Shown here one piece after another: positions 30,682 through 35,574 of a stretch of DNA of 64,000 bases. The DNA comes from Acidobacteriota bacterium (GTDB lineage Bacteria > Acidobacteriota > Blastocatellia > UBA7656), in contig JBFMDH010000032.1 in assembly GCA_040754075.1 (NCBI GenBank), forward strand, positions 1-64,000, in the 5' to 3' direction. The notes beneath the pieces were generated by a model, which had not been told where the DNA came from, did no database searches, and saw nothing but the letters and a program-made list of their open reading frames with translations. Both the position numbers and the translations under genes were made by a program. Each line of letters opens with the position of its first letter. Positions within the stretch are counted from its first letter, which is position 1.

Positions 30682-30897
30682 CGAGGGAGAAAGGGGATGG
30701 GGAGAAGGGGAGAAGGGGAGATAGGGAGATAGGGAGAAGGGGAGAAAGGGGGATAGGGAGATAAATAACCTCATTCACACTCAAATGTCTTTTACAATAT
30801 TTGCTGTAATTTTTGGGACTATAATCGGGTGATACTATTTAAACAAATAATCACCCCCTTCTCCCTTTCTCCCCTTCTCCCTTTCTCCCCTTCTTTC
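30682..30897. repeat. Inverted purine/pyrimidine tracts between convergent genes
   Basis: A purine-only or nearly purine-only tract (30684-30762), made of variants of GGGAGAAG and GGGAGATA, is mirrored by a pyrimidine tract (30853-30897) made of CCCTTTCT and CCCCTTCT. The two are largely complementary with about 90 AT-rich bases between them. They lie in the 3' gap of two convergent genes and could form a long imperfect hairpin acting on both transcripts. Confidence 0.75.
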
Positions 30898-33220
30898 ATT
30901 TTTCCTGCGTGTCATTCATTAACACGACATCACTGATGGTAACGCCTCTATCGAGCGCCAGGGTTTTTCCATCGCGTGACCAGGCAAAGCGAAAAATACT
31001 GTCGCACTTGAAACGGGTAATCGGTGTTGAAATTCCGCCATCAATCGGTTGGCTCCAGATATTCGCCACACCGTCACTGATTTTGATGTAATGCAAAGCG
31101 CGACCATCGGGCGACCAGCGCAACAGCAGATGTTCGGGTATCGGCATTTCATTAAAAGTTTTGCTGACTTCGCCGCCCGCAAACGGCATCAACGCCACCA
31201 CCATACGCTTGTGCGACGCATCCATTTTAATAAATGCGATGTGTTTGCCGTCAGAGGAAATCTGCGGACGAATCGACCATTCGTGGGTGAGTTGTTCAAC
31301 GGCGCTGCCATCAATGGAAACCTTATTTAAAGCCATCACCCCGCCAACGAAAGCGTTATACACAACCCATTTGCCATCGGGTGAAATCGCGGGGTCTTGT
31401 TCGCCTTTGCCATCAGTTAATTGGATAGGGTTTTCGCCGTTGCTGTCCATGCGCCAAAGGTGCGGTGGACCTGCGCCTTTGGCAACATAAACGATATAAC
31501 GTCCATCGGGAGAAACCACCGGTGCGGTTTCCTGACTATCGGTGAAAGTTAATTGGCGTTGATTAGTGCCGTCGGCATTCATCATCCAAATGTCGGCGTT
31601 TCTGCCGCCGTGCGAACCGTAAACCAATTGTCCGTCAGGCGTCCAACTCATCCCAAACAATTCGCTGCGATTATCGCCCATTACCGAAATGATTTGCTTT
31701 GCAGTTTCCGAATCGCCTTGATTGAGTATCCAGATTCGCGACACCCGCTCCATCGTTGAGGTGACCAGACGATGCGAACGATTTGCAAGGCTGACGCCTT
31801 CATAGCTGATTAAATCGTCCGTGAGCTTGATGACTTCACCCTTCGGGTAAGCAATGCGCCAGAGTTGCGAACCGTAAAGCGGTTCTTCCTGACGAAAGGC
31901 GCTCACCAGAATGCCGCTGTTATCGTCGAGCCAGGCGATTTGTCCAACGTCTGCCCATTCGTTCGGACCCAGAGGCGATTCCTGCTTATCGGCTAAATGA
32001 TAAATCATTACCTGCATATGACAGGCAGGCAAATTCATTCGGCGCACGACACAAGCAATCAATTTACCATCGGGCGACCAGGCGACGCCGCCCCAGTTTG
32101 ATACCAGTTCGGGTTTCTGCCGCGTCATCAACACGCGCGGTTCGCTGCCATCGGCGTTTGCCACCATCAATGCGGTTCGACCTTTGGCAAGGTCAGAGGT
32201 GACATAGGCGAGTTGTTTACCGTCAGGCGAAATGGCGATGTGGCTATCGACATCAACGAGAATTTTTCTCGGCGTGCCGCCAAGTATGGGAATTTGATAA
32301 AGCGCGCTTTGATACTGTTTGTCGGTGGTGTCGAAGTAGAGGAATTTGCCATCGGGCGAAAAAGTCACGCTATCGTAAATAACTTCTGTCGGAGCGATGA
32401 CCTGCACACAACTTTTGGTTTCCACCTGCATAACCCAAAGCGATTGTTTGCCCGCATCATCGAGCACATAGGCGACATATTCGCCATCAGGCGCAAGCGT
32501 CGGCAACAGATTTTTGCCATGCGCCGTGAGTTTTTGTTTGCTGATTTTTTGAAAAGGTGTCGCAGATGTCGGGAAAAAATCTCGTCGTTTCAGATAGAGA
32601 AAAGCGATGAAAATGACCGCTGCGAAGATGACCATCGCGAAAATGCTCAAAGGCTTTTTTTCTAACCACCAATGCGGTTTAGTCAGTTTTTGAATGTGGC
32701 GCGCTTGATTGATTGGCTGTTCAATCGGCTCATCACCACCAGTTTGAATCTGAGCCGCGCTTACCTGCGCAATTGTAGGCAGCAGTTCATTCGAGGGTGA
32801 CAACAATGGTTGAACGTCAGCCGTGAGCGATTCCTGATGAATCGGGATTGCCTGAACAGTTGCTGAAAACCGGTAGCCTCTTTTCGGCAGGGTTTCGATG
32901 TACTGATGATGCGCGGCGCTTTCACCGAGAGCTTTTCTCAAATAGGAAATATGAACATTGAGATTAATCTCTTCGACAAAGGTTTCCGGCCACAAACGAT
33001 TGAGCAGGTCATTTTTTTCCAATACCTGTCCGTTATGTTCAACCAGTACGAGCAGCAACTCAAAAGCTTTGGTGGTCAGCGACACCGCCTGACCGTTACG
33101 CTTGAACAGGCGATTTTGCGGGTCAACGATAAATTCATCGAAGGCATACAGCACAGCCTCGCGATTGGTCAGGGACATAGAGCGATTTTGAGCAACATCT
33201 TTTTTGTAAAATCTTTGCAT
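30896..33220 (-). CDS. ToxR/CadC-like winged-helix protein with a periplasmic TolB-type propeller
   Basis: A 774-residue membrane-spanning one-component regulator. Residues about 25-125 are an OmpR/PhoB-type winged helix (YAFDEFIVDPQNRLFKRNGQ, LTTKAFELLLVLVEHNGQVL, INLNVHISYLRKALGE, IETLPKRGYRF). One transmembrane helix follows near residue 190-212 (LSIFAMVIFAAVIFIAFLYL). The rest is a beta-propeller of TolB/PD40 repeats, each with xxSPDGxxIAY (TLAPDGEYVAYV, TFSPDGKFLYFD, AISPDGKQLAYV, SPDGRYIVYVAKG). It would sense in the periplasm and bind DNA inside. The start may be ATG 33220 or ATG 33178; neither has a clear ribosome-binding site. Target genes are unknown. Confidence 0.88.
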   Translation of the reverse strand: MQRFYKKDVAQNRSMSLTNREAVLYAFDEFIVDPQNRLFKRNGQAVSLTTKAFELLLVLVEHNGQVLEKNDLLNRLWPETFVEEINLNVHISYLRKALGESAAHHQYIETLPKRGYRFSATVQAIPIHQESLTADVQPLLSPSNELLPTIAQVSAAQIQTGGDEPIEQPINQARHIQKLTKPHWWLEKKPLSIFAMVIFAAVIFIAFLYLKRRDFFPTSATPFQKISKQKLTAHGKNLLPTLAPDGEYVAYVLDDAGKQSLWVMQVETKSCVQVIAPTEVIYDSVTFSPDGKFLYFDTTDKQYQSALYQIPILGGTPRKILVDVDSHIAISPDGKQLAYVTSDLAKGRTALMVANADGSEPRVLMTRQKPELVSNWGGVAWSPDGKLIACVVRRMNLPACHMQVMIYHLADKQESPLGPNEWADVGQIAWLDDNSGILVSAFRQEEPLYGSQLWRIAYPKGEVIKLTDDLISYEGVSLANRSHRLVTSTMERVSRIWILNQGDSETAKQIISVMGDNRSELFGMSWTPDGQLVYGSHGGRNADIWMMNADGTNQRQLTFTDSQETAPVVSPDGRYIVYVAKGAGPPHLWRMDSNGENPIQLTDGKGEQDPAISPDGKWVVYNAFVGGVMALNKVSIDGSAVEQLTHEWSIRPQISSDGKHIAFIKMDASHKRMVVALMPFAGGEVSKTFNEMPIPEHLLLRWSPDGRALHYIKISDGVANIWSQPIDGGISTPITRFKCDSIFRFAWSRDGKTLALDRGVTISDVVLMNDTQEK

Positions 33221-33655: not shown

Positions 33656-34561
33656 TTATTTGAGGAGCGCATTCATTAACCCTGTGACCTTCTGATGTAA
33701 ATCGGGCGGCGCGCCGAAAAAGACATTGGCAGTTTTGCCGGTGCGGTCAAAAACATACATCGTCGGCACACTGGTAATGTCGCCAAAATTTTTAATGATT
33801 GCGTCATTCACGAACACTTTATGAATCATCGGATTTAAGGTTGCGGTCATCTGTCGCACCTCTTTTTCAGGCGATTCAACGGCAACCGCGATGAGTTCGA
33901 CGCGCTCACCATAACGCTGCTTGATTTCATTAAACCATTTGAGCGTCGCGCGACAAGGTACACACCAGGTTGCCCAGAATTCGACGATGAGCACTTTGCC
34001 GTTGAGCGCCGCAAAGTCAATTTGCTTTCCATCCATATCGTGCGCAGTAAAAGTTGGCAAAGCGGCAGGTCCCAGGGCTTCAAGGCGGGCGGCAGGTTTT
34101 TCGGCTGCGGCTTTATGACCGCTCAAAATCAGGTCAATCATTTTGCTGAGGTCGTTTTTAAATTTCGCGTGATTGGCGGCATCGCGCCACGGTGTGTATT
34201 TGCCTTTTGCCCCGTACCAGCCGAAATCATCCGGTTGCGCAATGAGCAGGTCATCGACAAAAACTACAGGGTAGCGGGTGATACCATAGTAATCCGCAAG
34301 TTTTGATTCCCCCCAATTTTCACTGACGAATTTCACTTTTGCGCCGTATTTCTGAGCGATCTCTTTAATCAGCAAACTTGCCGGGTCTGAAAGGCTTCAG
34401 GTGTAGGGCCAGCGCACCAGCGTCACCGTCACCGGTTGGTTTGAGGGTGCAACCCCGGCGCGTTTTTGAATTTTTTTCTTTACCGATGGTGATACGGCAA
34501 ACCCCTGTGCGCTTGATAAGATGAGCGCACAACAAATCAAAACAACATTCACTCGCTTCAT
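33656..34561 (-). CDS. Exported double-thioredoxin protein with an in-frame TGA at the first active site (candidate selenoprotein)
   Basis: Read from ATG 34561, the frame has a signal peptide (MKRVNVVLICCALILSSAQG), then VTVTLVRWPYT, an in-frame TGA at codon 55 (34399-34397), then SLSDPASLLIKEIAQKYG and an unbroken frame to 33656. The segment around the TGA has the thioredoxin fold order: strand, active-site turn, helix, strand (VKFVSENWG), helix, and the cis-Pro loop TRYPVVFVDD. The TGA falls where the nucleophilic Cys of CxxC/CxxS belongs, giving Sec-Ser-Leu-Ser. A second, canonical TlpA/ResA-like thioredoxin domain follows with WCVPC (residues 199-203). Without recoding, only a TTG-started fragment lacking a signal peptide would be made. 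ATG 34561 overlaps the stop of the upstream gene (TGATG), implying coupling. A nonsense mutation is the main alternative. Confidence 0.75.
34370..34399 (-). promoter_or_regulatory. TGA codon with a possible bacterial SECIS hairpin
   Basis: After the TGA (34399-34397), the mRNA can form a 5-bp stem, CGGCA with UGCUG (one G-U pair), closing the loop AGUU at 34378-34375. The loop starts 18 bases after the UGA and has G in its second position. This meets the loose spacing and loop rules used for bacterial SECIS elements, but such short hairpins also arise by chance. Confidence 0.35.
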
Positions 34562-35574
34562 CAGTTGATCTCTCCAAGATATTTGAAATAGCGCGGCAGT
34601 AGCTTATCCGAAATGATTGCCGCGCGTTTGAGCATTTCGGCATCGTTTTGCTGAAGCGCATACTCGACCAGTTGCCAGTAAAACCAGCCGATGCTTTGAT
34701 CGGTTTTTGCCGCCAGCAAACGTTTGTGCACAGCGGCGTTTTGAGTTTTTAAACGGGCTACGGTTTCATCATTAACCGCCGCCGCCGTAATTAAATTGAG
34801 CGCCAGACAGGTGTTGAGATATTGCAAAAGCGCGCCTTGAAATTTTTTCGCGGCGTTCAATTCCTGAGCGATTTTCAACGAGGCATTCACCGGTAAATAT
34901 CTTGTCTGATCGTTTGTCCCTTCGGCTTTGGCAAAACCGGCGATGATTTCGGTTTCTAAAGTTTGCAACTCGCTATCGAGGGCACGCAACGTTACTGCCG
35001 GTTGTGCGGGCGGAAAATTGAGTTGCGCACAAAAGCGTAGGAAATCGCTATGCGCCACAGCCAATCCTAAATAGTAGAGTCCGTTTTCAACTGTGGTGTT
35101 GATGCCGTAAAGACGCCCCGATTTGTAATAGGGTTGAATCTGGCTTTGCGAAATTTCCGTCAATGCCTGCACCATGCCTGGCGTTTTTCGAGCAGGCAAG
35201 GGTTTCTCTTTAGCAAACAATTGTGTGCCTAACGTTTGCCAGGTTTTTTCAAAGGTTTCGCGAGTGGTAATGCCAGCACGCTTTTGCGAACGTTGATAAG
35301 CCAGAGGTTCCAACCCCATACGCAATTGCTGCAAGCGGTACAAACTCAGATAGAGATAGCCCGACGTCAGCGCGGTTTCTGCCTGTTTAAACGGATAAAT
35401 ATTTTCGTTGGCTTTTTCTTCAAGCGAAACCTGAAGCTTTTTGAGCCGAGCGATTTCCGTTGTCAGTTGTTCACTTGGCGCAGGCGCTTGCGCGGCAAAT
35501 CCGGTAAACGGCATCAGCCCTGAAAGCAAACACAAGATAATGCGACTGGCTTGGTAGAGATGTTTAGTATCCAT
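34561..35574 (-). CDS. Exported helical protein of unknown function, translationally coupled to the thioredoxin gene
   Basis: A 337-residue protein. ATG 35574 begins a signal peptide (MDTKHLYQASRIILCLLSGLMPFTGFAAQ); an earlier in-frame start at 35625 would place extra residues before it. The mature part is mainly alpha-helical, with regularly spaced Leu and Ala (LTTEIARLKKLQVSLEEKANE, TALTSGYLYLSLYRLQQL, EYALQQNDAEMLKRAAIISDKLL), like a solenoid or helical bundle. I do not recognise a family. Its TGA stop overlaps the ATG of the candidate selenoprotein by one base, so the two are probably made together, and a shared periplasmic redox role is plausible. No cysteine pair or catalytic motif is evident. 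Confidence 0.7.
   Translation of the reverse strand: MDTKHLYQASRIILCLLSGLMPFTGFAAQAPAPSEQLTTEIARLKKLQVSLEEKANENIYPFKQAETALTSGYLYLSLYRLQQLRMGLEPLAYQRSQKRAGITTRETFEKTWQTLGTQLFAKEKPLPARKTPGMVQALTEISQSQIQPYYKSGRLYGINTTVENGLYYLGLAVAHSDFLRFCAQLNFPPAQPAVTLRALDSELQTLETEIIAGFAKAEGTNDQTRYLPVNASLKIAQELNAAKKFQGALLQYLNTCLALNLITAAAVNDETVARLKTQNAAVHKRLLAAKTDQSIGWFYWQLVEYALQQNDAEMLKRAAIISDKLLPRYFKYLGEIN

Follow-up and report, generated by a model that had tools for sequence, protein, structure and literature searches.

The gene at 33656..34561 on the minus strand of the window (the whole 64,000-nucleotide stretch of Acidobacteriota DNA analysed here) almost certainly encodes a selenoprotein, with the UGA at its codon 55 (34397..34399, minus strand) decoded as selenocysteine (Sec). 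The Sec machinery of the genome, a SECIS hairpin and homologues with TGA or TGC at the same codon all agree with the original prediction, which had read this TGA as Sec. It is also very probable that the explanation as a whole holds, namely a true Sec gene with an in-frame SECIS, whose product would be an exported, two-domain UxxS and CxxC redox protein acting as a relay together with a partner. What the original prediction had overlooked is the wide spread of the family, the likeness of its SECIS to that of fdhF, and a co-conserved upstream partner, which is fused in most lineages.

The gene has 301 codons with a single in-frame UGA, followed by the stop. Read directly on the reverse strand, the frame opens at ATG 34561 with MKRVNVVLICCALILSSAQGFA...VTVTLVRWPYT, reaches the TGA at 34399-34397 and continues for 246 codons to a stop ending at 33656, with a second in-frame stop being absent from the whole frame. 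The elements that had been noticed in the letters, including a signal peptide and WPYT before the TGA, the motifs Sec-x-x-Ser, TRYP and WCVPC, and the unbroken 246-codon continuation, could all be seen in this frame; TRYP forms residues 95-98 and WCVPC residues 199-203 of the translation, and the UGA lies at the position of the active-site nucleophile (U-x-x-S). A Sec-type signal peptide is predicted from the sequence at residues ~1-22 (34496..34561, minus strand), a region that the AF2 structure of the whole protein gives at low confidence, and the product is probably exported.

Among the matches listed, with duplicates removed, at least 31 distinct genes carry TGA at codon 55 and two carry TGC (Cys). 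Codons other than these two were not found at the site among the 33 family genes listed, and the number with an unrelated residue was zero; the term "same codon" is used here for homologues whose site codon was read out. Two full-length relatives (53% and 48% identity), each with one in-frame TGA at the same codon, were found in 58 related genomes. Searching with the Sec-containing domain 1 gave positives in 5 of the 162 genomes of the window's class, the four others all having TGA, and in 15 of 396 sampled genomes of its phylum, again all with TGA. The same search was positive in 1 of 291 genomes from L054's phylum (labelled Armatimonadetes) and in 5 of 392 from L052's (labelled Planctomycetota). 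At least 13 of the 80 loci listed in a genome-contig scan are true members, 12 of these 13 with TGA and a sole exception with TGC, and the remaining loci match the TlpA part only. The TGA-bearing homologues come from Acidobacteriota and Planctomycetota, while the two TGC relatives are L054, in an Armatimonadota MAG, and L149, a paralogue in a genome of L052's phylum; these taxon names are MAG record labels, some of which are possibly wrong. For the window's own phylum, proteins of two genomes belonging to it, G430 (L131) and G373 (L133), match L055 and L047, which both have the label Acidobacteria.

The aligned TGA genes are 37-53% identical to the window gene. Their alignment is gap-free around the site, with coding conservation on both sides of the in-frame TGA, and Sec is paired with Cys (L054 and L149) at one aligned position. 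The motif is UxxS in 30 of the 31 TGA genes, and L043 has UxxC, reading U-H-L-C. It could be argued that the TGA is a nonsense mutation or a sequencing error in a Cys gene, leaving a broken gene, as a single substitution from TGC to TGA would suffice and both Cys relatives have TGC. However, the recurrence of TGA at one codon in 31 distinct genes, at the identities given above, excludes sequencing error or chance; the downstream frames are also intact, residues are conserved on both sides of the TGA, and a hairpin has been selected at silent sites. The random nonsense mutation that the original prediction had set aside as unlikely can therefore be given a negligible probability.

The core of this hairpin, CCGGCAAGUUUGCUGA, is located at 34369..34384 on the minus strand, which corresponds to nt 16-31 when the U of UGA is counted as 1. 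In the window, the loop is G23 U24 and the closing pair A22-U25. The pattern CCRGCA(AGTT|GGTC)TGCTGR was present at nt 16-31 in 31 of 31 TGA genes and in neither of the two Cys genes. The closing pair 22/25 covaries, being A-U in 21 and G-C in 10 of the TGA genes with no mixed pairs, and the pair 18/29 is either G-U or A-U. Across 17 sequences, the named pairs of the hairpin are intact in 97.5% of cells, and in 50% or less once they are slid.

The hairpin is also constrained at synonymous sites. In codons +6 to +9 the wobble base showed no variation in 31 of 31 genes, an invariance that carries no formal P value due to shared ancestry, whereas elsewhere in the aligned segment the wobble varies and silent sites are scrambled at 37-53% protein identity. 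Of the 32 invariant-residue columns after Sec in 17 genes (Met and Trp left out), just two are encoded by the same codon in every gene (GCA for one, CTG for the other), and these two lie within the hairpin; downstream in the same genes, GCA accounts for 9% of the codons for Ala and AGT for 8% of those for Ser. The hairpin is lost in both Cys relatives, even though they retain DPAS: L054 keeps the residues DPASLL with the codons GCG AGC CTG CTT, and L149 has GCC AGC ATC CTG. Hairpin, synonymous-site constraint, covariation and loss in the Cys relatives are what would be expected if the UGA is read as Sec.

The minimum free energy (MFE) of the 50-nt SECIS region in the window is -8.5, no better than that of shuffles (z 0.16), with the 20-nt core reaching z -2.3, and the case for a SECIS therefore rests on the comparative evidence. 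A conserved outer stem was not found among the SECIS alignments of the TGA genes. The Rfam model SECIS_1 (RF00031) had no match in the window's own genome and none in the control genomes either, which makes this result uninformative, and an Rfam scan of 34300-34450 gave chance snoRNA/miRNA matches only, on the other strand, and no SECIS model. The published constraints on bacterial SECIS elements are an upper stem of 4-16 bp, a distance from UGA to loop of 16-37 nt and an MFE of -7.5 kcal/mol or lower (PMC13188914). The elements described here, with a loop AGUU or GGUC, a stem of 5-6 bp, a spacing of 18 nt and, in the window, the MFE given above, fall within them.

The SECIS of E. coli fdhF has the same distance from the UGA, the same codons GCA-GGT-CTG at nt 19-27 and the same G23/U24 loop. 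Its 10-nt core GCAGGTCTGC at nt 19-28 is identical in the GGTC subclass (10 of 31 members), while the other 21 members, including the window gene, have the covarying variant GCAAGTTTGC. The fdhF fragment, which is annotated as such, is carried by 5368 of the 5426 E. coli genomes in the collection. The family differs from fdhF in having no conserved outer stem and in its host protein, which is unrelated to FDH. As the SECIS is E. coli-like, tests of expression and Sec insertion in E. coli are realistic.

The spacing of the SECIS also bears on whether the TGA could be a genuine stop, with a short secreted peptide in front of it and a TlpA protein re-initiated downstream, for example at TTG 34375. 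Standard gene calling does produce a 239-aa ORF (33656..34375) with this TTG start. However, the protein is conserved through the TGA without indels, the Cys relatives have a plainly continuous frame, re-initiation would cut off the first strand and the active site of domain 1, and the SECIS is present at fdhF spacing, which leaves a genuine stop highly improbable.

The complete set of genes for Sec incorporation, which would be required for the predicted decoding, was detected in the window's own genome: selA, selB, selD and a tRNA-Sec (selC) with anticodon UCA. Among the genomes of 17 relatives, 16 had a selB above the cut-off, including the Cys-bearing one; in G165, a MAG with a TGA member, selB had no score above the cut-off. 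As selA is near-ubiquitous in the class (above the cut-off in 143 of 158 genomes), its co-occurrence is necessary and not discriminating. UGA readthrough occurs in some bacteria, and the codon could in principle be read as an ordinary amino acid, by Trp or other suppression. This would be at odds with the adjoining partner gene, in which TGA (34563-34561) is a normal stop, with the alternatives seen at the site, which are Cys only and never Trp, and with the complete Sec machinery and the SECIS in the genome, and we regard it as scarcely credible.

Two further observations were made on Sec use. The genome's own selD (L040, G000:C29:72690-73613) is a second selenoprotein gene here, as its catalytic site reads MVSCAGUAAK with the U encoded by an in-frame TGA. 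Sec use looks nearly universal in the class, yet the selenoprotein family is present in only 5 of 162 genomes.

Domain 1, the Sec domain, is a divergent thioredoxin fold covering residues 44-146 (34124..34432, minus strand), with Sec55, Ser58 and a cis-Pro-type loop, TRYP. Modelled in full with AF2 (pLDDT 84.7), the protein has two thioredoxin-like units. Because Foldseek with the full model was swamped by domain 2, domain 1 was modelled separately (pLDDT 86.9), and its matches were then overwhelmingly thioredoxins or thioredoxin-containing entries (TM ~0.4-0.5, E 1e-3 to 1e-2). The model has the beta-alpha-beta-alpha-beta-beta-alpha order, the active-site turn before a long helix, and the cis-Pro loop. 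Of the four profile alignments to solved thioredoxins that were displayed, three match Sec with the nucleophilic Cys and the subsequent Ser with the resolving one, and the fourth (3tco) shifts Sec to the second Cys of the CxxC. When domain 1 was aligned with domain 2, W51-P-Y-T-U55 fell on W196-A-T-W-C200, with weak probability and in the same register. The thioredoxin order with Sec-x-x-Ser at the nucleophile, proposed from the letters, is thus upheld by the Foldseek matches and by three of the four profile alignments.

Domain 1 had no significant match to any Pfam or NCBIfam model and, with UxxS in 30 of 31 genes, it is not a classical thioredoxin (PF00085). It shares with the thioredoxin UxxC selenoproteins the fold and Sec at the nucleophile position. 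It differs from them in its UxxS motif (with one UxxC), its predicted export, its tandem arrangement with a TlpA domain and a partner, and the lack of a significant Pfam thioredoxin match.

Domain 2 is a ResA/TlpA-like thioredoxin domain at residues 166-300 (33662..34066, minus strand), and contains the WCVPC that the original prediction had placed in a second domain after the Sec domain. Its CVPC motif (33953..33964, minus strand) holds Cys200 and Cys203, the sole cysteines after Sec55. Domain 2 scored above the Pfam cut-off, was recognised as ResA by Foldseek, and has WAxWCxxC in all scanned members, which makes it a Redoxin/AhpC-TSA-type domain with WCxxC as in ResA/TlpA. With ResA, TlpA and CcmG (PDB 1su9, 4nmu; PF08534/PF00578) it shares the fold (TM-score by target ~0.85), the WCxxC and export, which is predicted here; unlike in these proteins, the domain is in tandem behind a Sec domain, and the selenoprotein did not reach the NCBIfam cut-offs for ResA/TlpA. 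Among the 29 scanned loci with TGA, 28 have no cysteine after Sec other than the pair in domain 2, the exception being L043 with its UxxC.

As domain 1 has no resolving Cys, we propose that the domain-2 CxxC acts as the resolver, and since nearly all TGA genes have no further cysteines after Sec, domain 2 would supply the resolving thiol most economically. Sec55 could attack an oxidised periplasmic substrate, either a disulfide or a peroxide, and the selenenylsulfide or selenenic acid thus formed could then be resolved by the domain-2 CxxC. Re-reduction of the CxxC may fall to a thiol donor in the membrane, for instance one of the CcdA/DsbD type, and the partner protein might, as a guess, be a scaffold or a substrate-docking module. 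We give this relay from Sec to CxxC in the periplasm roughly an even chance.

The partner gene (34561..35574, minus strand, with the start taken as 35574) encodes a probable secreted protein with no Pfam or NCBIfam match and no conserved Cys. Its stop overlaps the start of the selenoprotein gene in a TGATG (34559..34563, minus strand), an arrangement that suggests translational coupling. In 18 of 18 members checked, the partner either adjoins or is fused in frame with the Sec domain. When the sequences were read by eye, the partner was found fused at the C-terminal end in L148, and fused directly to a Cys domain 1 in L149, where the TlpA domain is absent. Fusion on either side is strong evidence of a functional link, and in the tree split and fused forms were grouped with few changes.

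L149 (G1196:C131:17426-17746) is ~4.7 kb from the Sec gene L148 (G1196:C131:22161-22490) in the same genome. Besides the partner, no genes were conserved around the locus across 14 loci. An M1 peptidase upstream in the window does not belong to the unit. Downstream of the gene, at 30896-33220, there is a winged-helix regulator fused to a PD40/WD40-type propeller; L050 has a similar ORF, but the regulator is not conserved with the family.

The arrangement in L149, a Cys domain 1 with the partner and without TlpA, suggests that the domain is viable without a CxxC partner. This would fit another possibility, in which Sec is inserted but the protein is no disulfide or peroxide oxidoreductase. Its Sec site would instead bind or hand over a metal(loid) or a reduced sulfur or selenium species, and domain 2 would serve for docking or release. 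UxxS is also found in arsenate reductase and rhodanese selenoproteins (PMC13188914), and domain 1 is distant from all named families. However, domain 1 has a thioredoxin fold with Sec or Cys at the catalytic position, the tandem TlpA CxxC domain is present in every Sec member read, and conserved metal-resistance genes are absent nearby. A binding or transfer function is therefore considered unlikely compared with redox catalysis.

By present catalogues, the family is quite likely to be new, on comparison with open-access literature and table text. A review from 2026 counts 119 prokaryotic selenoprotein families and subfamilies (PMC13188914), and its Table 1, the text of which, not the representative sequences, was compared, has no entry in which a thioredoxin domain with UxxS stands in tandem with TlpA. 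In NCBIfam 20.0, no model was above the cut-off for the whole protein and none was significant for domain 1. The known TlpA-type selenoproteins (the UGC-containing TlpA family, the thiol-disulfide isomerase-like UxxC proteins of cd02966, and NF041054) also have a TlpA-like domain, and the Sec motif is listed for that domain itself (PMC13188914). In the proteins described here, by contrast, the TlpA domain is all-Cys and Sec is in an added N-terminal domain; against NF041054 (WAxxUGC_long), the window protein scored 33 bits where the cut-off is 300.

The redox reading could be taken further, as a tentative view to which we give somewhat less than even odds. The proteins would be exported redox enzymes and form a nearly Sec-only family that is missing from the catalogues. 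Their Sec domain, which lacks a resolving residue, would be recycled by the tandem TlpA domain and docked by the dedicated secreted partner, and they may have an activity that is not known from other selenoproteins. As part of the same tentative view, the family could have been overlooked because discovery pipelines require more than one Cys homologue and gene callers place the start past the UGA. For example, the deep-Sep filter asks for a known Sec homologue, or for no fewer than two Cys homologues within the top ten (PMC12013277). As Cys relatives are rare (2 versus 31 among those listed), filters of this type could miss the family, and further Sec-only families may hide likewise.

This apparent new family would be an addition to the bacterial selenoproteome, in acidobacteria, which are abundant in soil, and in some Planctomycetota. 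The evidence for it is unusually clean, as selection on the SECIS at silent sites is gone in both Cys relatives. Two other loci, L150 (G003:C160:6000-10500) and L151 (G009:C161:17000-21600), contain fusions of TPR repeats with TlpA, the active site reading FWATWUGPC and FWASWUGPC, respectively, with TGA as U. The class thus probably has a further selenoprotein of the UxxC type, in which helical repeats and TlpA are laid out in a parallel manner.
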